From positions 1-40,534 of the IMG/VR virus record IMGVR_UViG_3300035703_000185: DNA of 40,534 bases. The stretch is one strand, 5' to 3'. Within the stretch, counting starts at the first letter, position 1. Each line of letters opens with the position of its first letter. Positions 12,912 to 34,148 of this stretch are shown piece after piece. The translations under genes and the position numbers were made by a program. Under the pieces are notes generated by a model. The model saw only the letters and a program-made list of their open reading frames with translations, had not been told where the DNA came from and ran no database searches. This DNA comes from a virus.

Positions 12912-15900
12912 TCAGTCCCGGTCGTAGCGCGCTTGGATGCGAATGCGGTCGTCCAGCACCGTCGCCGGGCTGGGCGCCACGCAGCGGCCGACCCACACCG
13001 CAGCACCCGCTGCACCGGTGTTGAAGCGCAGCACGTTGCCGGTGGCCCAGCCCGCGCCCCACCCCGCCGCACGCAGCACGAAATAGGGCTCGCTGGTCAC
13101 CGGGTTGATCGGCGCGAGGTCGCTGCCGGTAGTGCCCGTGGCGATCACACCCAGGTCTTCGCCGACCACGTTGTAGGCCGTGCTGCTCGTGAACTGAATG
13201 CGCCAGCGCTGGGTGATGCAGTCCGCGTTGATCACCTCGATCGGGTGCGAGATCGCGTTGTACGCCGCGCCACTGGTCGGCGGGTTGCCGATCAGCTCAT
13301 CCGACCAGACATTCGTCCAGGTGTTCTGCGCGAACAGATTCGCCACCCGCGCCGACACATCGCCCCGCACCAGCGCCGAGCTGACCAGCGTGTTCGCCGC
13401 ATCGAAGTTGCGCGTCAGCGGCTGGGCGAAAGTCACCGTGCCGTCGATCTGCGCATCCGTGCAGAGCATCATGTCCTCGACCGTGTGCAGCGCGGTCAGC
13501 GGCTCGGTGTAGCCGGTCAGGTCGAGCGGGTCGGCCATGGTCACGCTGCCGGCGACGCGGTCGACGGTGAACAGGTCCGCCGGCACGCCCAGGCCGTTGG
13601 CCGCGTAGATCGCCACGCTGGCCAGCCCGCCGCGCGGCAGCATGTAGGTCTCGCCGGCTTCGACCGGGTTGTCGAGTGCGAAGGCCTGCGTGTCGTGCAT
13701 CACCAGCGTGTCGCCGGCGCGCAGCAGTTGCACGCGGCCGTCCTGCGGCAGGCGCACGGGGTTCACGCCGATGATTTCGGGGCTCAGCGGCAGGTTCGCC
13801 TGCACCACGCAGCTGAAGCGCACGGTGCCCGGCAGCGCCGGCTCGGGCCGCCAGATGTAGCCGTCGGCGTCGATTGCGTCCGCGTCGTACCACGGCGCGG
13901 CCAGGTCTTCCGGGCTCAGCCCGCTGGCGAGCACGTAGCGGCCGAATGCGACTTGCCAGGTGCCGTTGGCCGAGTCGACATAGCCGTGCATGTCGGCGGT
14001 GCTGATGTTGCCGTTCTGGTCCGCGAGCGCGGTGATCTGCGCGCCGTCCACGTACCGGTTTGCCTGCACGATCAGGCTGCCCGGCCGCACCGGCGCGCCC
14101 GGCGCCAGCCCCGTGGCTGCCGACAGCGGCAGCGGTCGCAGCTGGGTCAGCAGGGCCCGCACATCCAGCGCAGGCGCGATACCGCCGGGCCAGCTGGTGA
14201 TCACCGCCTCGCCGGTGCTGTAGCTCAGCGTGCCGGCATCCACGCCGGCGCCGTTGATCGGGCTGGGGTTGCGCACCAGCCGGCCGCCGCGGTCCACGTA
14301 GCGCGCGCCGCCCAGCGTGAAAAGCACGCTGCCGGGCACGATCGTGTTGCTGGTGCCGCGCGTCAGCCGCACGCGCACCGGCGGGGCCGGCACGCTCTGC
14401 GTCTGCGCGCCGTCGGTCACGCCGTCTTGTTTGTACTGCAGCGTAACAGCGCTGCCGTTTTGGAAACCCACGCTGCGGGTTTCGTTGGTGATGCCCACCG
14501 GCCACAGGCCGAACTGCGCCTGCGCCGCGAAGTAGCCGGTGCTCGGGTCGACCACGCGCGCCGGCAGGCCCTGCTCGAAGTCGCTGTAGCTCAGCACCGG
14601 CGTGATGGCGGTGAAGTCCGGGTCGAAGGTGATCTCGCCCGTCGTGTAGTTGACCGCGCTGCCGGCCTTGATCACGCCGGCCGCGTCCACCAGCTGGCCG
14701 ATGCCGTTGTCCGTCAGCTGCTGCGCGGTGCTGATGCTCAGCAGGCCCTGCTGGATCGTCTGCGGGTAGGTGATCAGGATGCTGCGCGGCCGCACCGGGG
14801 CCTCGGCCGCGGTGATCGTGATCGTGCTGCCGCTCTTCGTGGGGTTGAAGATCTCCGTCTCGACCGCGCCGCTTTCGTACGCGAGTTCGAAGGTCGCGGT
14901 GCTGTCCGGCAGCAGGGTCGGCCGCAGCGCCAGCTGGCCGGTGCCGTAGATGATTCGGCCAGTCGCGTCGCCAGTGATGCCGCCCACGCCGTTGTCGGTG
15001 GCCGTGCGCGTGACGCCGCCGGCTTCCCACTCGATTTCGAGCGTGCCCGGCTCGCAGTTGCCGGCCGCCAGCGTGATCTCGACCTCGGGCACCTGGGTGC
15101 CGATCGCCTGCGTGCGGATCTCGTAGGTGCTGTTCTGGCCCCAGCTGAAGATGATGCTGCTGCCCACATCCGGCAGCGCGCCCAGGGTGACGCTGGCCGT
15201 GCCGGTGATGTAGTTGATGCTGCCCACGCCCACACCCGGATCCGCCCGCAGCGAGCCCGCGCCGTCGTCGACCAGGGTGTAGCGCTTGCCCAGCGCGCGG
15301 TAGCTCACCTGCACGCTGCCCGGCGCCGGCGTGGGCGCCAGGTTCGCGATGTAGACCGTGCCGCGGTTGCCGAGCGTCACGCGGCGGTTCTCGGTGATGG
15401 CGGCCTCGGAGACATCGATGTACGGCTCGGCCAGTAGACGGATTTCGCCGGGCTGGATCTGGCCGCCGAAAGTGATCACGAAACTGAAGGTGCCGGCCTC
15501 GGAGTCGGCCACCACATCCGAGATACCGGGCGCCGCACCCGCGGTGAGCACGAAGCTGCCGTCCGGCTGCTCTGTCCACTCGCCGAAGTTGGCGGCGCTG
15601 CGCTCGATACGGATCTTCGCGGTGCCGCGGCGCCAGGGCATGGGCGACAGGCACGAGATAGTCTGCGTGCCCACCGGCAGCGTCGACCAGTCAAAGGGCT
15701 GCTGCACCAGCGTGATCGACGCGCCGGCCGGGTCCAGCCGCTTCGTGGTGCCATTCACCGGCGCATTGACCACCGGCGACTCGCTCACCGCCGCCGGCAC
15801 CAGCTGGCCGAACACGCTTTCGCACTTGATCGTGAGGTCGCCGATGCTGGCATTCACCGCCAGCGGCACGGTGCCGTAGTAGCGCGCCGCGTTGCTGACC

Positions 15901-16565
15901 ACGCTGGCGCGCAGCAGGCTGCCGGCTTGGATGGCGCCGTCGGCTTTCTGCACGCGCATCTCGCGGTTCGGCTGCGTGCCCGGCCATTCGTTCTGCAAGG
16001 CCTGCGAGATGGTCAGCGTGATCACGCGCGCGGGGTAGTCGCCGCGGTCGTCGGTGAAGATCTCGACGCGGTGCGCGATATCGGTCACGCGGATGAACTC
16101 TGTCAGCGTGCCCGCCTGATTCGCTAGCACGTACACCTCGCCGATCTCCGGCAGCGGCAGGTCAGGCCGCTGGAACACCAGCACCGTGCGCTGGCCGGCC
16201 AGCTGGCGGTCGTACGGCAGCATGCGCGTGACCACGCTGGCGTCGAGGTAGCGTTCGACCGCGTTGGCCGCCGTGGCGCGCTGGTCCGCCCAGCCGCGCG
16301 TGCTGAACAGGAACGCGCTCACCGCCGGGTCGGTCGGCACCGCCTGCACGATGAAGTGCAGGCCCAGGAAGGTGCTGGCGTCCTCTGTGTTCGCGATCGC
16401 GAAGAACTTGCGCAGGCTCACCGCGCCGTTGGTGCGGTCGATTCGGTCGACATCGTCGAACAGGTTGTTGATCTGCCCGTCGACGATCTCGACCGTGGTG
16501 GCCAGGCCGCCGCCGTCGGGGTTGTCGGTCAGCCGCTGCGGGCGATAGAGCTTGATGTCGGTCAT
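12912..16565 (-). CDS. Giant tail-tip protein with repeated Ig-like modules, 1217 aa
   Basis: The largest gene after the tape measure. From about residue 400 it contains repeated beta modules, each with an acidic turn and an Y-x-T-G strand: DDGAGSLRADPG...INYITGTASVTLG, DNGVGGITGDATGRIIYGTG, DNGIGQLVDAAG...VNYTTGEITFDP, and LSYSTGEAVITSW. These lie at about residues 453, 540, 640 and 782, and a weaker version near 865. Such modules occur in phage tail-tip and host-attachment proteins. The N-terminus (MTDIKLYRPQRLTDNPDGGG) may anchor it to the tail. No enzymatic motif is seen. Confidence 0.75.
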   Translation of the reverse strand: MTDIKLYRPQRLTDNPDGGGLATTVEIVDGQINNLFDDVDRIDRTNGAVSLRKFFAIANTEDASTFLGLHFIVQAVPTDPAVSAFLFSTRGWADQRATAANAVERYLDASVVTRMLPYDRQLAGQRTVLVFQRPDLPLPEIGEVYVLANQAGTLTEFIRVTDIAHRVEIFTDDRGDYPARVITLTISQALQNEWPGTQPNREMRVQKADGAIQAGSLLRASVVSNAARYYGTVPLAVNASIGDLTIKCESVFGQLVPAAVSESPVVNAPVNGTTKRLDPAGASITLVQQPFDWSTLPVGTQTISCLSPMPWRRGTAKIRIERSAANFGEWTEQPDGSFVLTAGAAPGISDVVADSEAGTFSFVITFGGQIQPGEIRLLAEPYIDVSEAAITENRRVTLGNRGTVYIANLAPTPAPGSVQVSYRALGKRYTLVDDGAGSLRADPGVGVGSINYITGTASVTLGALPDVGSSIIFSWGQNSTYEIRTQAIGTQVPEVEITLAAGNCEPGTLEIEWEAGGVTRTATDNGVGGITGDATGRIIYGTGQLALRPTLLPDSTATFELAYESGAVETEIFNPTKSGSTITITAAEAPVRPRSILITYPQTIQQGLLSISTAQQLTDNGIGQLVDAAGVIKAGSAVNYTTGEITFDPDFTAITPVLSYSDFEQGLPARVVDPSTGYFAAQAQFGLWPVGITNETRSVGFQNGSAVTLQYKQDGVTDGAQTQSVPAPPVRVRLTRGTSNTIVPGSVLFTLGGARYVDRGGRLVRNPSPINGAGVDAGTLSYSTGEAVITSWPGGIAPALDVRALLTQLRPLPLSAATGLAPGAPVRPGSLIVQANRYVDGAQITALADQNGNISTADMHGYVDSANGTWQVAFGRYVLASGLSPEDLAAPWYDADAIDADGYIWRPEPALPGTVRFSCVVQANLPLSPEIIGVNPVRLPQDGRVQLLRAGDTLVMHDTQAFALDNPVEAGETYMLPRGGLASVAIYAANGLGVPADLFTVDRVAGSVTMADPLDLTGYTEPLTALHTVEDMMLCTDAQIDGTVTFAQPLTRNFDAANTLVSSALVRGDVSARVANLFAQNTWTNVWSDELIGNPPTSGAAYNAISHPIEVINADCITQRWRIQFTSSTAYNVVGEDLGVIATGTTGSDLAPINPVTSEPYFVLRAAGWGAGWATGNVLRFNTGAAGAAVWVGRCVAPSPATVLDDRIRIQARYDRD

Positions 16566-26685: not shown

Positions 26686-27066
26686 TTACGCGGTGAGGGT
26701 CGCGTTGCCCGGGGTGAGCTTCACGCGGCAGGTGGTCTGGGTGTTGAGGCCCGGATTCACCGCGATCGCTGCACCCATCAGGTCGCCGCTCGCCGGCGTG
26801 GCGGCGCTGTCGTCAAACGCGCCGAGGCCGCCGTTTGCGGACACGTCGAGCAACAGCTTCTCGCCGATGACGAAGACCGCGGCAGACACCTTTGGCACGT
26901 CGAAGATGCCCTCGATCGCTACGGTGCCAGTCGCGCCGTTCGCGATGGTGGTCAGCGCGACGGCGGCGATATGGCCGGCCTTGACCAGCTGGCCAGAAGC
27001 CACCGATGCGCCGGTGCTGTTGGTCCAGGGGATGGTGTCCCCCGGCGCCACATAGTTCTTTGCCAT
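26686..27066 (-). CDS. DUF2190 capsid decoration protein, 126 aa
   Basis: Begins MAKNYVAPGDTIPWTNSTGA and continues SGQLVKAGHIAAVALTTIAN, GTVAIEGIFDVPK, then a loop with VIGEKLLLDVSANGG. This is the DUF2190 fold (a small beta barrel), which is found as a capsid-binding cement or decoration protein. The gene follows the capsid gene directly, as is usual. A good ribosome site (gagg) precedes the ATG. Confidence 0.85.
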   Translation of the reverse strand: MAKNYVAPGDTIPWTNSTGASVASGQLVKAGHIAAVALTTIANGATGTVAIEGIFDVPKVSAAVFVIGEKLLLDVSANGGLGAFDDSAATPASGDLMGAAIAVNPGLNTQTTCRVKLTPGNATLTA

Positions 27067-27087
27067 GACACTTTTCCTCTTTGAGGG

Positions 27088-27110
27088 GCCCGGCCGGGGT
27101 TCGGCCGGGC
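27088..27110 (-). other. GC-rich hairpin between the capsid and decoration genes
   Basis: GCCCGGCCG and CGGCCGGGC (9 bp, no mismatch) are separated by a 5-base loop, in the 74-base gap between the capsid fusion gene and the decoration gene. Transcribed leftward it has no long T run behind it. It may act as a partial terminator or stabilise the downstream mRNA, which would tune capsid to decoration ratio. Confidence 0.55.
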
Positions 27111-27140
27111 TTTGGCTATGGGGTGGTCAGGTCGGGACGA

Positions 27141-30100
27141 TCAGCCGCCGGTGCCGGCGTTGCGCACGGCGCCGCGGAAGCCGACTGCGCCGGTGGCGTA
27201 GCGGTGCGAGACCTTCCAGTCGACGCCGTCGCTGCGGAAGTTGTCCTGCTGCTGAAGCGTCGGGGTCTGCACGCCGTCCATGAAGGACACTTCGAACACC
27301 GGCTCGGCCTCGGGCTCGGCGAGCATGTACCACGCGGTCGGAGCCATACGGACGGAGTCCACGACATCGCGGAACAGGCCGCGCACCACGTTGGGCTTGC
27401 GCTGCTGCTTGTTGGATTCGTCGTTGTATTCCTGCGCGTTCAGCTCGCGCGCCTTGCTGCCCAGCGACAGCGGGCCGAGCCACAGAGCAGGCGTGATGTC
27501 GAGGTAGTCGTTGGCGCCCGGGTCCATCTGGCTCGCCATCTGCTGGCGCATGGCGTCGATGATCTCGATCGACGGCGCGCCACCGGTGGCGGCGATGTTG
27601 TTGTGCGAGGCGTGGAACAGCGGCTGGCCGTCCGACATGGTCGGCCCGAAGCCGCCGTTGAGGGCGAACAGGGCGTGCACGTCTTTCTCGATCGTGCGGC
27701 CCGCGGCCTGGCCGAGGGCGCCAGCAGCCCGCAGGATCAGCCCCAGGTCGTCGTTGACGATGACTTCGGGGGTAACGCTCAGGATGCGGCCCTTGCGAAC
27801 ACCCTGCACCACCTGCTTTTCACCATCGCCCAGCACGCCGTTCTCGTACTCGCCGGCCTCGTTGACGACCTTCAGATCACTGAAGCTGGACAGCGAGTAG
27901 CGGTTGTGCGGGCGGTAGTCGGTCAGCGTGCCGATCGAGCAGAAGCGGCTCCAGGTGAACGGGATGAGGCGGTAACCCGCGATCACCGTCTTGTGCATGG
28001 TGTTCTCGAGCACGACCACGAAGTCGCTGGTGGTCTGCCGGGCCAGGGCCTTCTGCGCGATCTCTTCGCGGTTCATGTGGCGCGTGTCGACGCCCTGATG
28101 CCGCAGGAAGCTCTCGGCGATGGCCGACAGCGTCATGCTGCCGAACGGGTTGGCCTGACGCGCGGCTTCGGCCTCGGCGCCGGTGATGATGTTGTGGCGC
28201 GCCAGCAGCAGGTTCGATGCGGCGGCGCGCAGCTTGTCGCGTTCGTCGACGTTGTCGCCGCGCAGGGAGGGGCCGCCCGCCGTGCCCTGCACCGGCGAGC
28301 CCTGGCCGACGCGCGCCAGCAGACGGGCCTGCGCCTGTTCCAGGCTGACATTCGGGTCGGCGAGGACTTCGGCTTCGAGCTGGGCGACGCCCTGCATCTC
28401 GCGGAAGCCGGCGAACACGCCGCGGATGTTGGTGTTGCGCTGCTGGATGGCCGCGATGGCGGCATTGGCTGCGGCGATGGCATCGGCAGCGACCGCCGGC
28501 TGCGGGTTGGCTGCAACAGCAGCCGGGGCCGGCGCGGGAGCAGCGGGCGCCGGCGAGGGGGTCGGGGTGGGAGTGGGCTGGCCGCCTGCGGCAGCCGCCA
28601 TTGCATTCACCAACTGCGTACGCATGGTCGGGTCCTCGATGTGCTCCAGTACGGAGCGCTGGTAGTCCTCGCTGAGCGAGGCGAAAGCGGCCAGGGAGCA
28701 GGCCGAATTGATGTGCGCGCGCAGCTGGGCGCGCGGTGCTTCCGGCGCCTTGCTGATCGCGTTGACGTAGCCGATGAGCGCAGCCGCGGCGGCGCTGGCG
28801 TCGAGCGCTTCGGGGCTGCCATCGATGAGGGTGTCGGCGAGCTTGGCCTCGATCGCCTGGGCGGCCGTGTACCAGTGGTCGCGGCCGTCGGCCATCAGGT
28901 CGATGAACTCGGCGGCGGGCCGGCCGGTCTTGCGCGCGTAGCTCTGCGCCATGGCCTCGCGCTGCACGCGCAAGTAAGCGGCGGCGTCGTCCATTTCCTC
29001 GGGCGACCCGAACTGCCCGGCCTTGGGCGTGTGGATCATCATCGAGGCGTTGGGATAGATCCGCACTTCATCGCCGGCCATGGCGATGAGGCTGGCGATG
29101 CTGGCAGCGACGCCTTCGATCTCGACCACGATGCGGCGGCCGGACTCACGCAGGATGTTGTGGATGGCCACGCCTTCGCTGACGAAGCCGCCATCGCTGT
29201 TGATGCGCACGCGCACATCGCCGGCCGGCGCGCCTTTGAGCTGTGCGGCGACCGCCTGGACGGTGACGCCTTCATCCCAGAAGCTGGCGCCGATGGGGCC
29301 GTAGATCAGCAACTCAGCACCGGCGGCGAGAGCGGTGGCGCGCAGCACGCCGCGCTTGGCTTCGGCGGCACTCGCCGATGCTTCGGCCGCGAGATGGCTG
29401 GTGCGGTGGCGCGCGGAGGCGTTGGGCGGGGTCATGTTGGTCTCCGGGGGCGGCGCGGAGCCGCTGGCGTTCGCGTCGGGGATTCCCCACTGGCGCTTGC
29501 GGGCGATCCACGCGGATTGCTGATCGAGCACGTCGCGCGGGTTGGCGCCACGGCGGCGGATGATTTCGGGCCCGGACATGTAGGTGTGCTCTTCCAGCAC
29601 GGCCATGGCCTCGGCCTCGTGCAGCGGGTTGATCCACGGCATCTGCGGCAGCGCGTACATGGCGTCGCCGATGCTGGCGGGGTCGAAGTCGGCGGGCACG
29701 CGCAGCAGGCCAGGCGTGGCCAGGGCGACAGCGGCGAAGCGCTCATAGCGGCGGCGCGCGATCGCGCTGATGAACTCGTAGCCGAGCACGCCGTAGGCGC
29801 CGTACTGCTCGACCAGCTCTTGGCGCTGCGCGGAGTAGGTGCCGTTGTAGTTCTTGGCCAGCGCGCTGAAGCTGATGCGCATGCCCGAGGCCGCGGCGCG
29901 CAGCTGGCCGTTGCGCCAGCCTTCGAGGTTCGGGTTCGGGCGGTTGGTGTCGACCGTGCCGACGGACTCGCCGGGGCGCAGGCTGTCAAACACCATGCCG
30001 GGCGCGAGGCGCGCGGTGCGGTCGCGATCAGGCGCACCCTCCGGCAGCATCGTCGGATCGCCCTTGATGATGAAGGCCGCGAAGCACGCGGCAATCTTGG

Positions 30101-30920
30101 CCGCGATGCGCTCGCTCTCTTCGTAGTCCTTGAGGTCGTCGAGCCGCGTGAGCACGGACGCCAACAGGCTGATGCCGCGCACCTGCCCGATGCGGTCGAC
30201 CAGGCGCAGGTGCATCACGCGCTCAGCCGGCACCGACTTGGTCTCACCGACCAGGGCCAGGGTGTCGCCGGGGTGTTGCTTGTACAGGTGGTAGGCGACA
30301 GGTCGCCCCCAGGCGTTGCGCTGGACCCCTTGCGTGATCCCTCGGCCCGGGTCGGTGAGATCCCACGGCAGCAGGTCCGGCTCGATCATCTCGAGGCTGT
30401 ACGGCACGCGGGTGCCGTGGTCGAGAAGCGGCACCGGGCCGATCAGCTCCTGCGTCAGCACCTCTCCGTCGCGGAGCCAGGTGCGGCACAGCAGGCGATC
30501 CATGCTGCCGATATCGTGCTGCCAGGTGACTTCCGGCCGCTTGGCGAAGTCCGTGTGCAGCATGCCGAGCTGAAAGGCGAGGTCTTCCAGCACGTCGCCA
30601 TTGCGGTTACGCGGCTGCGGCTCCACGCCCACACCGGTCGCGCCGATGATGTTCTGCGCCAGGGTGTTCAGCGCGCCGCTGACGATGTCGAGATTGCGGT
30701 CGAGGTGGCGCGCCATGTTGCGCACATACAGGCCGCTGCCGACCACTGCGTTGTTGCCGCTGCCGAAGTCGCGCACGGCGTCGCGGAAGCGGTTGCGGTC
30801 GGCGGCGTCGTAAGCCTTGTGCGAAAGCGCGATGGCCTGCCGCGCCTGCGCGCGCTTGAAGCCGTGCAGCGGAGCCACGGTTTCGATGGTGCGATCGATG
30901 GCGCGGGCCAGCCAGCTCAT
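27141..30920 (-). CDS. Portal, ClpP-type protease and major capsid protein in one ORF, 1259 aa
   Basis: One uninterrupted frame. Residues about 1-495 are a lambda-type portal (WLARAIDRTIETVAPLHGFK, NMARHLDRNLDIVSGALNTL, AERVMHLRLVDRIGQVRGIS). Residues about 530-725 are a ClpP-like prohead protease: INSDGGFVSEGVAIHNILRE, catalytic Ser607 in EGVAASIASLIAMAG, and His630 in MMIHTP. A Pro-rich linker lies near 780-810, and 900-1259 is the capsid subunit (TTSDFVVVLENTMHKTVIAG, RPHNRYSLSSFSDLK). Protease-capsid fusions are known; adding the portal is unusual. An ATG at 29435 (residue 496) with a GGAG six bases upstream could restart translation, so two products (495 aa and 764 aa) are possible. Confidence 0.85.
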   Translation of the reverse strand: MSWLARAIDRTIETVAPLHGFKRAQARQAIALSHKAYDAADRNRFRDAVRDFGSGNNAVVGSGLYVRNMARHLDRNLDIVSGALNTLAQNIIGATGVGVEPQPRNRNGDVLEDLAFQLGMLHTDFAKRPEVTWQHDIGSMDRLLCRTWLRDGEVLTQELIGPVPLLDHGTRVPYSLEMIEPDLLPWDLTDPGRGITQGVQRNAWGRPVAYHLYKQHPGDTLALVGETKSVPAERVMHLRLVDRIGQVRGISLLASVLTRLDDLKDYEESERIAAKIAACFAAFIIKGDPTMLPEGAPDRDRTARLAPGMVFDSLRPGESVGTVDTNRPNPNLEGWRNGQLRAAASGMRISFSALAKNYNGTYSAQRQELVEQYGAYGVLGYEFISAIARRRYERFAAVALATPGLLRVPADFDPASIGDAMYALPQMPWINPLHEAEAMAVLEEHTYMSGPEIIRRRGANPRDVLDQQSAWIARKRQWGIPDANASGSAPPPETNMTPPNASARHRTSHLAAEASASAAEAKRGVLRATALAAGAELLIYGPIGASFWDEGVTVQAVAAQLKGAPAGDVRVRINSDGGFVSEGVAIHNILRESGRRIVVEIEGVAASIASLIAMAGDEVRIYPNASMMIHTPKAGQFGSPEEMDDAAAYLRVQREAMAQSYARKTGRPAAEFIDLMADGRDHWYTAAQAIEAKLADTLIDGSPEALDASAAAAALIGYVNAISKAPEAPRAQLRAHINSACSLAAFASLSEDYQRSVLEHIEDPTMRTQLVNAMAAAAGGQPTPTPTPSPAPAAPAPAPAAVAANPQPAVAADAIAAANAAIAAIQQRNTNIRGVFAGFREMQGVAQLEAEVLADPNVSLEQAQARLLARVGQGSPVQGTAGGPSLRGDNVDERDKLRAAASNLLLARHNIITGAEAEAARQANPFGSMTLSAIAESFLRHQGVDTRHMNREEIAQKALARQTTSDFVVVLENTMHKTVIAGYRLIPFTWSRFCSIGTLTDYRPHNRYSLSSFSDLKVVNEAGEYENGVLGDGEKQVVQGVRKGRILSVTPEVIVNDDLGLILRAAGALGQAAGRTIEKDVHALFALNGGFGPTMSDGQPLFHASHNNIAATGGAPSIEIIDAMRQQMASQMDPGANDYLDITPALWLGPLSLGSKARELNAQEYNDESNKQQRKPNVVRGLFRDVVDSVRMAPTAWYMLAEPEAEPVFEVSFMDGVQTPTLQQQDNFRSDGVDWKVSHRYATGAVGFRGAVRNAGTGG

Positions 30921-31168
30921 CGGCGGAAGCCCTCGCAGTGCGAGTGGCCATTGCCGCTGAAGTCGGCCAGGGCGTACAGCGAGGACTGGCCCTGCGCGCC
31001 GGCAGCTTCGGCCTTGACCTTCGCTTCCCACTCGCGGCGGCCGTCCTGAACCATGCTCAGGTCAGCCAGCGTCAACATGCGCTCACCCATGCGCACCGAC
31101 TGGCCCTTAAGGATCTTGGCCTCGGCGTCCAGGTAGGTCTGCAGCATGATTTGCGCGGTGCTCGACAT
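30917..31168 (-). CDS. Head connector, DUF6148-like, 83 aa
   Basis: Begins MSSTAQIMLQTYLDAEAKIL, then KGQSVRMGERMLTLADLSMV and the charged helix QDGRREWEAKVKAEAAG. The A..(YL)DAE..vL.GQS....G..LT.ADL motif is that of DUF6148, found between terminase and portal genes in lambda- and Mu-like phages (gpW-type head joining position). The ATG at 31168 is preferred over an upstream one. It overlaps the portal start by 4 bases. Confidence 0.75.
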   Translation of the reverse strand: MSSTAQIMLQTYLDAEAKILKGQSVRMGERMLTLADLSMVQDGRREWEAKVKAEAAGAQGQSSLYALADFSGNGHSHCEGFRR

Positions 31169-31229
31169 GCGGGCTGCGGCTCTCGCACCCCGCGACCGGC
31201 GGGGAGTGATGCGCATGCTCCGTACCCAA

Positions 31230-31270: not shown

Positions 31271-31612
31271 CTACGCGGCGCGCTGCTCCGTCGGCGTCGC
31301 GCGGCCGTCTTCAGCGTCGATCACGGCATACAGCGTGCGGCGCGACATGCGGAACTCGCGACAGATGGCGCGAATCGACTTGCCCCCCTGCAGGGCCGCG
31401 CGAATCTCGGCCACCGGGTACTGCGGCTCGCTGGCGCTGGCCGGGATGTACAGGTCTTGGCTCGGGTATTCCTCGACCAGGTACGCAACAACCGCCTCGA
31501 CCACCGGACGGATGTCGTCGCTATCCAAGCGCAGACGCAGCGCCGCACCGATGGCGAGCTCATCCACCAGCTCGCTGACACGGGCACGACAGCGAGCGAC
31601 TTTGCGACTCAT
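31271..31612 (-). CDS. Mor-like transcription activator, 113 aa
   Basis: The protein has the Mor/C-type layout: N-terminal helical dimerisation part (ARVSELVDELAIGAALRLRL), a beta turn with LYIPAS, then a C-terminal helix-turn-helix (EIRAALQGGKSIRAICREFR, MSRRTLYAVI). Mor activates middle and late genes in Mu. Here it lies inside the late operon between terL and the connector, so it may boost or time expression of the head operon, perhaps with the overlapping hairpins just after it. It overlaps terL by 4 bases. Confidence 0.72.
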   Translation of the reverse strand: MSRKVARCRARVSELVDELAIGAALRLRLDSDDIRPVVEAVVAYLVEEYPSQDLYIPASASEPQYPVAEIRAALQGGKSIRAICREFRMSRRTLYAVIDAEDGRATPTEQRAA

Positions 31613-33582
31613 AGGCGGCGGCTCCAGGCATCGGATGCGACGGGGGTGGCGGGCGCGAGAGACCTCGGCGCATCCGCCGGCTTGAACACGGCGGCAGGTG
31701 GCGGCGCGGACTGGGAGGCCGGGCGCGGCGGGCCGTCACCTGGCGTAGTGAACAGATCCATCACCGCCGGCTCGAGCTTCGACTCCAGCGCGGCCCAGTC
31801 GGCATCGCGCCGGACATGCAGGCGCACACGCGGGTGCACGGCAGCGGCGTAGGCATAGACCCAGCAGTCGAAAGCCTCGTTGCGCACGGACTTGTCGCGG
31901 ACCACCCAGCGCTTGAGCGTCAGGTCGTAGCGCTCGCTGGTGATCTGGCGGAAGAACTCTTCGGGCATGTCGTCCGGGATGTGGCAGCGGCGCTTGTCGG
32001 CATCGGCGCCAGCGTCGCCCATCAGTCGGGCGAAGAGCGTGGTCTTCGTGGTGTTGACGCCCAGCGTCCACAGCTGCACGCCGTGGCGCTGAATGCGGCC
32101 GCGCCAGTTGACGTCCTGCAGGGTTGGGCGGCCGATGATCGGTTTGGTCGGGTCTTTGCTGCCCTTGATGGCGATGACGCCACGCGCGGCGTTCTTGCGC
32201 GCCCAGTTGTAGACCTCGTGCGTCCAGTTGCCGGAGTCGATGGCGACCACTTCGGGCCGCAGCGGCACGCCGCAGCGGTTGGCGATGGGTGCGAACACGA
32301 TGTCGTCCAGCGCGTCCCAGTCTTCCTCGCGCGTGGGGTCGCCCGGCACTTCGACCCAGTCTACGAACCAGCAGACCTCGCCGCGGCCCCAGCCGCAGAC
32401 CAGCACGGACCAGCGGTTGTGCTGCACGTCGATGCCGACGGTCAGCACCAGGCAGCCGGCTGGCAGTGTGCGGCGCTGCCAGGCTTCGCGGCGTTCCAGC
32501 AGCTCGCTGCTGTCGACCTTCTGGCTTTCGCTTTCGTAGGTCTCGCCGAGGATGGTGTTGGTGAAGGTGATGGCGAAGTCGGCATCGGTGCGGGCGCGCG
32601 TGCGCTGCTGAGCAATCTCCGCCCAGGTGTCGCCGAGGCCGATCGGCGAGTAGAGCGCGTTGATGTGGTAGCTGCGGATGGCGGCGCCCGGGTTGTCCGG
32701 GATCCACTCGCCAGCCGCGAGCATGGCTGGCTTGTGGTGCTCGGCGATGAGCGTGCCGCAGCCCTCGCACAGGTACTGGCCGTCTTCGGTCAGCTGCTCG
32801 ATCACCAGCCGCTGGCGCACGCCACAGTGCGGGCACGGGACGTGGTAGCGGCGCTGGTCGCCGGCGAGGTAGGCGCGCTCAATGTTGCTGGAGCGCTTCA
32901 CCGTGGGCGTGCTGACCTTGAGGATCTTGCGGCCGGGGAAGGTGGTCGTGCGGCGCTCGGCGAGCTCGATCGCGCCGCCCTGGTCGTTGAGGTCGTCGGG
33001 GTATTCGTCGATCTCATCCATGGCCAGGTACTTGACCGGCTTGGAGCGCAGCGTGCTGGAACTGTTGGCGCCGGCGATGAACAGATGACCGGCAGGGAAG
33101 GCTTTGCTTAGGGTGGTGTTGCCGCTGTCGCGCGCCTTCGAAGGCGGCAGGATCTCGGCCAGCGCGGGGCTCTCGGCGATCATGTTCGCCAAGCGCTGCT
33201 TGCTCCACTCTTCGCCCATCTGCACGGTGGGCTGAACCACCATCATCGGCGCCGGCGCGTGGTGGATGACGTAGCCGCACCAGTTCAGCAGGGCTTCGGT
33301 GCCGCCGACCTGCGAGGACTTCATGAACACGACTTCGCGCACGGGCGAGCGCGAGCTCAGGCATTCCATCAGCTCGCGCATGTAGGGCGTGCGGGCTGTG
33401 CGCCACGGGCCAGACTCGTTGCCGCCTGCGCGCGGCAGCACGCGGTACTGGTCCGCCCACTCGGCCACCGTCATCGGCGCGGGGATGCTCCAACCCTTGG
33501 CCCAGCCGGCGCGAAAGGCTTCGACGCCGTCGGCGGTCGGCAGCGGTTCGGCGCCCATGGCCAGCATCACGTCGAGGGTCAT
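31609..33582 (-). CDS. terL: Terminase large subunit, GpA family
   Basis: A 657-aa packaging motor. ATPase part: Walker A-like FMKSSQVGGTEALLNW (about residues 86-101) and Walker B YLAMDEIDEYP (Asp189-Glu190). A zinc-finger-like pair, CPHC (250-253) and CEGC (272-275), follows. The nuclease half has TVGIDVQHNRWSVLVCGWG, VAIDSGNWTHEVYNW and a late DCWVYAYAAA, the acidic residues expected to cut concatemers. This fits GpA (lambda A-like) terminases, which usually make cohesive ends. The start was set at ATG 33582, which overlaps the terS stop. The C-terminal part is Pro/Ala-rich. Confidence 0.95.
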   Translation of the reverse strand: MTLDVMLAMGAEPLPTADGVEAFRAGWAKGWSIPAPMTVAEWADQYRVLPRAGGNESGPWRTARTPYMRELMECLSSRSPVREVVFMKSSQVGGTEALLNWCGYVIHHAPAPMMVVQPTVQMGEEWSKQRLANMIAESPALAEILPPSKARDSGNTTLSKAFPAGHLFIAGANSSSTLRSKPVKYLAMDEIDEYPDDLNDQGGAIELAERRTTTFPGRKILKVSTPTVKRSSNIERAYLAGDQRRYHVPCPHCGVRQRLVIEQLTEDGQYLCEGCGTLIAEHHKPAMLAAGEWIPDNPGAAIRSYHINALYSPIGLGDTWAEIAQQRTRARTDADFAITFTNTILGETYESESQKVDSSELLERREAWQRRTLPAGCLVLTVGIDVQHNRWSVLVCGWGRGEVCWFVDWVEVPGDPTREEDWDALDDIVFAPIANRCGVPLRPEVVAIDSGNWTHEVYNWARKNAARGVIAIKGSKDPTKPIIGRPTLQDVNWRGRIQRHGVQLWTLGVNTTKTTLFARLMGDAGADADKRRCHIPDDMPEEFFRQITSERYDLTLKRWVVRDKSVRNEAFDCWVYAYAAAVHPRVRLHVRRDADWAALESKLEPAVMDLFTTPGDGPPRPASQSAPPPAAVFKPADAPRSLAPATPVASDAWSRRL

Positions 33583-34148
33583 GCGGCGACGGCCTGCTGC
33601 GGTTCGAGCGAGGCGATCAGCTCGCACACGCGGCGCAGCTCATCGCTCAGCAGTACGTGCACGCGGTGCGGATCGGACTCGGCCGCCAGCTGCGGGGCAA
33701 GACGGTCGGCGATGCCCATCAGCGCTTCCTGCCCTCGGCGCGAGAGGTCGAAGGCAGTGCGCTCGACGTCAGTGCGGCTGACCAGGTTGCCGGCCTTCTC
33801 TTCGATTTCCATGTGCAGCAGGCGGACCTTCTGCACCTTCTCGAGCCTGGCGGCGTTTGCCAGCGACAGCTCATCGCCAGAGCCTTGACCGTCGGCATCG
33901 GGCGGGGCCGTCGACGCCGGTGCCGTGCCCGGCTCGCTGGCCGCCCGAGATCCAGACCGGCCGCCCTTCGTCGGGTGCATGTCTTTGTCGAGCACCAGGT
34001 CCGTCGCCCGCACCAGGATCCGGCCGCTCGAGTCCAGCACCAGCCGGCCCGCCGACTTCCACCGGCTGATCAGCGGCTGGCTGACGCCGCGATGCGCCGC
34101 GTACTCGGTGACGTTCATGGTCTTAGCGTTGTCGACGGCCGTGGTCAT
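33579..34148 (-). CDS. terS: Terminase small subunit, Nu1/DUF1441-like
   Basis: N-terminal helix-turn-helix (MNVTEYAAHRGVSQPLISRW, about residues 11-30) with a following basic wing, then a Gly/Ser/Ala linker and a helical region (LANAARLEKVQKVRLLHMEI, RTAFDLSRRGQEALMGIADR). This is the layout of Nu1-type small terminases, which bind the phage DNA packaging site. ATG 34148 is chosen over two alternatives (34190 and Met11). It is directly followed by terL with an ATGA overlap. A pair of 21-bp repeats lies just upstream and may be its binding site. Confidence 0.85.
   Translation of the reverse strand: MTTAVDNAKTMNVTEYAAHRGVSQPLISRWKSAGRLVLDSSGRILVRATDLVLDKDMHPTKGGRSGSRAASEPGTAPASTAPPDADGQGSGDELSLANAARLEKVQKVRLLHMEIEEKAGNLVSRTDVERTAFDLSRRGQEALMGIADRLAPQLAAESDPHRVHVLLSDELRRVCELIASLEPQQAVAA

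Follow-up and report, generated by a model that had tools for sequence, protein, structure and literature searches.

Among the head genes already described, the closest to the one considered here are those of Gifsy-2 and of the NF045540 family (F10, Fels-1 and mEp460 relatives), in which the protease, a scaffold-like region and the capsid protein are encoded in one gene; for Gifsy-2, Effantin et al. are said to have spoken in 2010 of a "tripartite capsid gene" (cited in PMC8814770). Those annotated relatives that were examined have a portal gene of its own, which lies in another frame wherever this was checked, and their NF045540 proteins begin at the protease, a trait that they share but that the NCBI model does not itself require. 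In contrast, the frame reported here begins with the portal. The difference bears on the placement of exactly one portal in the capsids of tailed phages and herpesviruses, which is still debated, with portal nucleation and scaffold contact as the leading idea (PMC10275583).

A four-part head gene and its relatives

The window, by which we mean the whole 40,534-base IMG/VR virus record that was analyzed, carries on its minus strand an open reading frame that runs from 30920 to 27141 (ATG at 30920-30918, stop at 27143-27141) and encodes 1259 aa without any internal stop, and it is from this DNA sequence that the fused frame is known. The first-pass annotation had described a single ORF for portal, protease and capsid protein at 27141-30920; these limits are right, and the strand, which it did not state, is the minus strand. 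The frame and its parts are the following.

27141..30920, minus strand: portal-protease-scaffold-capsid fused frame, 1259 aa plus stop
29436..30920, minus strand: portal module of lambda type, residues 1-495 (TIGR01539 and PF05136 above cut-off; profile match 42-481)
28821..29318, minus strand: ClpP-type head-maturation protease, residues ~535-700 (profiles, catalytic residues and ClpP structure matches)
28221..28790, minus strand: scaffold (delta)-like region, residues ~711-900, Ala/Pro-rich and of low complexity (position in the NF045540 match)
27159..28049, minus strand: major capsid domain, residues 958-1254 (PF25209)

A portal at about residues 1-495, as first annotated, agrees with the portal profiles: portal_lambda TIGR01539 (NCBIfam) scores 295.8 bits against a curated cut-off of 172.7, PF05136 scores 273.1 bits against 32.9, and Phage_portal_2 (Pfam) matches residues 49-375 with an E-value of 5e-81. 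The C-terminal ~720 residues (535-1256) match NF045540, the ClpP-like prohead protease/MCP fusion, over positions 2-652 of its 652 and with 510.7 bits against a cut-off of 475 (487.5 bits for the more distant fused protein of contig L006); fusions of protease and capsid protein were, as first remarked, already known. Within this part, the protease profile match spans residues 535-697 and CLP_protease (Pfam) matches residues 564-700 (E 3e-23); Ser607 and His630, both named in the first-pass annotation, are invariant in all six fused proteins described below, as is the candidate Asp696, and the protease, with its ClpP-type catalytic residues present, is putatively active. The capsid domain is present as well, but not from about residue 900 as first placed: its profile (Phage_capsid_4 in Pfam, residues 958-1254, E 1e-41) starts near residue 958, and residues ~711-950 are scaffold-like. 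We infer a scaffold function for residues ~711-900 from their position between the protease and capsid domains.

A structure predicted for residues 1-760 has a mean pLDDT of 65, with the linker at 484-532 disordered. Foldseek returned the portals of Chi, R4C and lambda as the top matches to the portal part, at a TM-score of only ~0.5-0.56 for this moderate-confidence model (pLDDT 65), and matched the protease domain well to ClpP structures (target-normalised TM ~0.78). A lambda-type portal gene is thus joined in frame to a Gifsy-2/F10-type protease-scaffold-capsid gene; the fusion is real and heritable, and it appears that each portal comes with a protease and a shell subunit on its tail end. 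On the opposite strand, a 1322-aa ORF lies antisense to the fused gene (27081-31049, plus strand) and is probably no more than a shadow that GC-rich codon usage casts.

Around the fusion lie terminase and adaptor genes upstream and a decoration protein gene downstream, in the gene order of F10.

31609..33627, minus strand: terminase large subunit (phrog_15, E 1e-236)
30917..31216, minus strand: gpW-like head-tail adaptor (phrog_118, E 2e-20), whose stop codon and the portal ATG overlap (ATGA)
26686..27066, minus strand: head decoration protein (phrog_122, E 1e-23)

Farther away, 12912-16565 on the minus strand encodes a 1217-aa protein with a full-length match to phrog_6128 (E 0) and no assigned function.

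The first-pass annotation had allowed that related phages might all carry a stop between the two parts. They do not: the same unbroken frame is found in five other IMG/VR contigs, whose proteins are 89% (L003), 82% (L004), 83% (L005), 48% (L006) and 48% (L007) identical to that of the window. Among 83 distinct relative junctions, drawn mostly from IMG/VR, with the window excluded and some near-identical pairs or sets included, 5 are fused, 6 have the protease in the same frame with a stop and 72 have it in another frame, so that the portal stop is present in 78 of the 83. All six fused genes stand on metagenomic virus contigs, from a small group of uncultivated tailed phages, and those of L006 and L007, whose sample numbers are close, may not be fully independent. 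No prophage or isolate with the fusion was found among 5 genome-contig relatives, or when 149 genomes were screened with the portal part and 60 with the junction motif, and no fused gene of an annotated phage or plasmid was among the matches listed. Neither a second portal nor a second capsid gene was found in the six fused records as they stand, each giving one match of either kind, and because no other portal gene was detected in them the portal would seemingly come from the long chain only.

Some loci that resemble the fusion are of another kind. Flotzy, HannyBb and Tritos have seemingly overlapping portal and protease genes that prove to be two genes in different frames. Contig L104 was set aside because it holds only a fragment, a lone 27-residue stretch at 680-760 that is 93% identical to the L006 portal; no other head gene was found near it, and the contig is perhaps chimeric. 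In three further relatives (L051, L080 and L105), ~2.7-3.7 kb separate portal and protease, with ORFs that we named by eye as fibre-like, collagen-like or carboxypeptidase-like.

In trees, the fused genes form two groups, the window with L003-L005 and L006 with L007. The portal and protease trees require two changes, but the AU test does not reject a single fused clade (p 0.38), and we leave undecided whether the fused genes had one origin or two, both being compatible with the trees. The window and L003 are ~95-100% identical across portal and protease and ~61-93% identical from residue ~750 onward; a recombination boundary inside the fused gene near that residue is likely.

The junction and its internal start

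The linker between portal and protease contains four features.

29325..29471, minus strand: linker, residues ~484-532, predicted disordered (pLDDT <50), containing the internal start
29442..29445, minus strand: Shine-Dalgarno (SD) sequence GGAG, six bases 5' of the internal ATG, predicted -6.6 kcal/mol
29433..29435, minus strand: internal ATG (Met496), putative start of a separate 764-aa protease-capsid protein
29432..29434, minus strand: out-of-frame TGA of an ATGA, located where close unfused relatives have their portal stop

The first-pass annotation had proposed that translation may also begin at the ATG at 29435, with GGAG six bases upstream, and the motif is indeed found at 29445-29442. 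The internal ATG of the fused genes corresponds to the protease start of the unfused relatives and is kept in all six. In the window it has the best SD site of the 33 in-frame ATGs, and with 28-37 in-frame ATGs per fused gene, the predicted anti-SD pairing of the junction ATG ranks 1, 1, 2, 1, 1 and 2 in the six genes. The arrangement GGAG-6-ATG is found at the junction in the window, L003, L004 and L005, while the ATG is preceded by GGGGGA in L006 and by GGGAG in L007. SD and ATG are conserved while the surrounding linker has diverged in the six fused genes, with pre-ATG lengths of 27, 26, 20 and 51 codons and the frame always kept. What results is, to judge by the alignment, a conserved SD site and start nested inside a longer frame, as in the lambda C/Nu3 type, and this conservation supports internal initiation.

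The first interpretation is supported in part, and the two starts may, as was also proposed at first, set the portal:capsid ratio. Predicted SD energies are nearly equal at the portal and internal starts of the window clade (-6.4 and -6.6), and the predicted product ratio therefore hangs on predicted RNA folding, which over positions -30 to +30 is weaker at the internal start (-9.4 to -18.7 kcal/mol) than at the portal start (-24.6 to -32.6 kcal/mol) in the window, L003, L004 and L005, the direction that the proposal calls for. The fusion itself would not be needed to set the ratio, since the unfused relatives presumably use separate starts. In L006 and L007 the portal start is less certain; a GTG lies seven codons 5' of the aligned start and is followed by A, and the resulting GTGA may overlap the stop of the upstream gene.

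We put forward, as a reasonably probable account of the whole, a fusion with a retained internal start that yields two products, of which the longer enters the procapsid and is cleaved by the protease. Initiation at the internal ATG would give an abundant protease-scaffold-capsid chain, and initiation at the portal ATG a scarcer four-part chain from which all portal would derive. This longer chain would be taken into the procapsid at its portal vertex, and there the ClpP-type protease would probably release the portal from its tail, together with the scaffold; no cleavage site between portal and protease was identified. The C-terminus of a portal faces the capsid interior, so that the attached protease and scaffold would sit on the right side of the shell.

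Origin of the fusion and alternative readings

In the close unfused relatives L109, L110, L115 and L116, the portal gene ends at an ATGA whose TGA overlaps the protease ATG, and an ATGA is retained at the junction of the window, L003 and L005, its TGA one frame off the portal frame. The ancestor would thus have had a portal stop overlapping the protease start, and the simplest path from it would be an indel that shifted the frame within the linker, which is short and variable, so that the ATG came to be read in the portal frame, with the old protease start and its Shine-Dalgarno site retained inside the fused frame.

It is conceivable, though in our judgment unlikely, that nothing more than this took place, i.e. 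that an indel removed the stop, that the fusion is tolerated without a role because the protease frees the portal, and that the frame is still open owing to short time and GC-rich DNA. The linkers are indeed GC-rich, with few potential stops, and when the pre-ATG linkers are shuffled the probability of finding no in-frame stop is 0.31-0.75 per linker; it is the recurrence of the open frame in five further contigs, and not the open linker alone, that makes the fusion more than chance. The pre-ATG linker also changes fast and under weak constraint (pN/pS ~0.6-1, on few sites), and only ~1.7-2.3 stop gains would be expected without constraint among the window, L004 and L005. None was observed, however, across ~0.5 synonymous changes per site among these three, a result that luck would give with a chance of roughly 0.1-0.18; the fusion is kept in two groups, changes in linker length stay in frame, and a single mutation would bring the stop back. 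The open frame is maintained, and we take this as modest evidence for selection on it.

It is very unlikely that only the full-length chain is made, with the internal ATG a relic, portal and capsid protein produced 1:1 and the surplus portal discarded or cut away. The unbroken frame would permit this, as would the similar predicted SD strengths at both starts in the window clade, but the internal SD and ATG are conserved where their surroundings are not, and a capsid normally holds 12 portal subunits and shell subunits in the hundreds. Still less credible is a programmed frameshift at the SD-like GGAG onto the out-of-frame TGA, which would give a free portal and leave the remainder as the fusion. 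The window, L003 and L005 do have GGAG just 5' of a TGA that overlaps the ATG, but the TGA is absent in L004, no ATG-overlapping TGA exists in L006 or L007 and the six junctions share no conserved slippery sequence; with the out-of-frame TGA not conserved, we reject this reading. We likewise reject, as the least probable of all, an assembly or sequencing artefact in which a missed base hides a true ATGA overlap where the portal stops. The window, L003 and L005 do have a TGA at the ancestral position, shifted by one frame, but the frame is open in the five further contigs too, across different metagenome records, two groups and differing linker lengths, third-position GC is high throughout the window-clade linkers, and the L004 linker is stop-free in every frame, so that no single base error could mask a stop there.

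Assembly and comparison with described systems

Returning to the fusion with two products, we note that the long chain might do more than deliver the portal. Lambda is believed to build an initiator out of portal, protease and scaffold, to which the shell protein is added later (PMC3224144), and the HK97 capsid protein includes a scaffold that becomes stabilised around the portal (PMC10275583). We raise as a doubtful extension that the four-part chain is a covalent assembly initiator, uniting portal, protease, scaffold and the first shell subunits in one molecule. The procapsid would then be seeded around the portal and acquire one portal ring and no more; the protease would subsequently release the seed.

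Among described systems, lambda has head genes of this kind (portal B, protease C and scaffold Nu3), and Nu3 begins inside C, in frame with it, much like the internal start proposed here. In lambda, however, portal, protease and capsid protein are separate gene products, whereas the chain encoded in the window unites all four functions. Herpesvirus UL26 and UL26.5 likewise give a long and a short product with a common C-terminus, the short one being abundant, but they do so from separate transcripts, and the long form bears the protease and not the portal. HK97 and T5 resemble the fusion in that a covalent link joins the scaffold domain to the capsid protein (PMC10275583), although portal and protease are separate proteins in HK97.

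We found no description of portal-protease or portal-capsid fusions in the open-licence literature. A portal-scaffold-capsid fusion that occurs in nature would lend itself readily to testing portal nucleation, because the peptide bond fixes the neighbours of the portal. Two starts within a single frame would, moreover, set the portal:capsid dosage, and portals with a very large C-terminal cargo would have a precedent in nature. Compared with Gifsy-2 and F10, the protease-capsid half of the gene is of a known kind, and it is the portal joined to it for which those papers gave no precedent.
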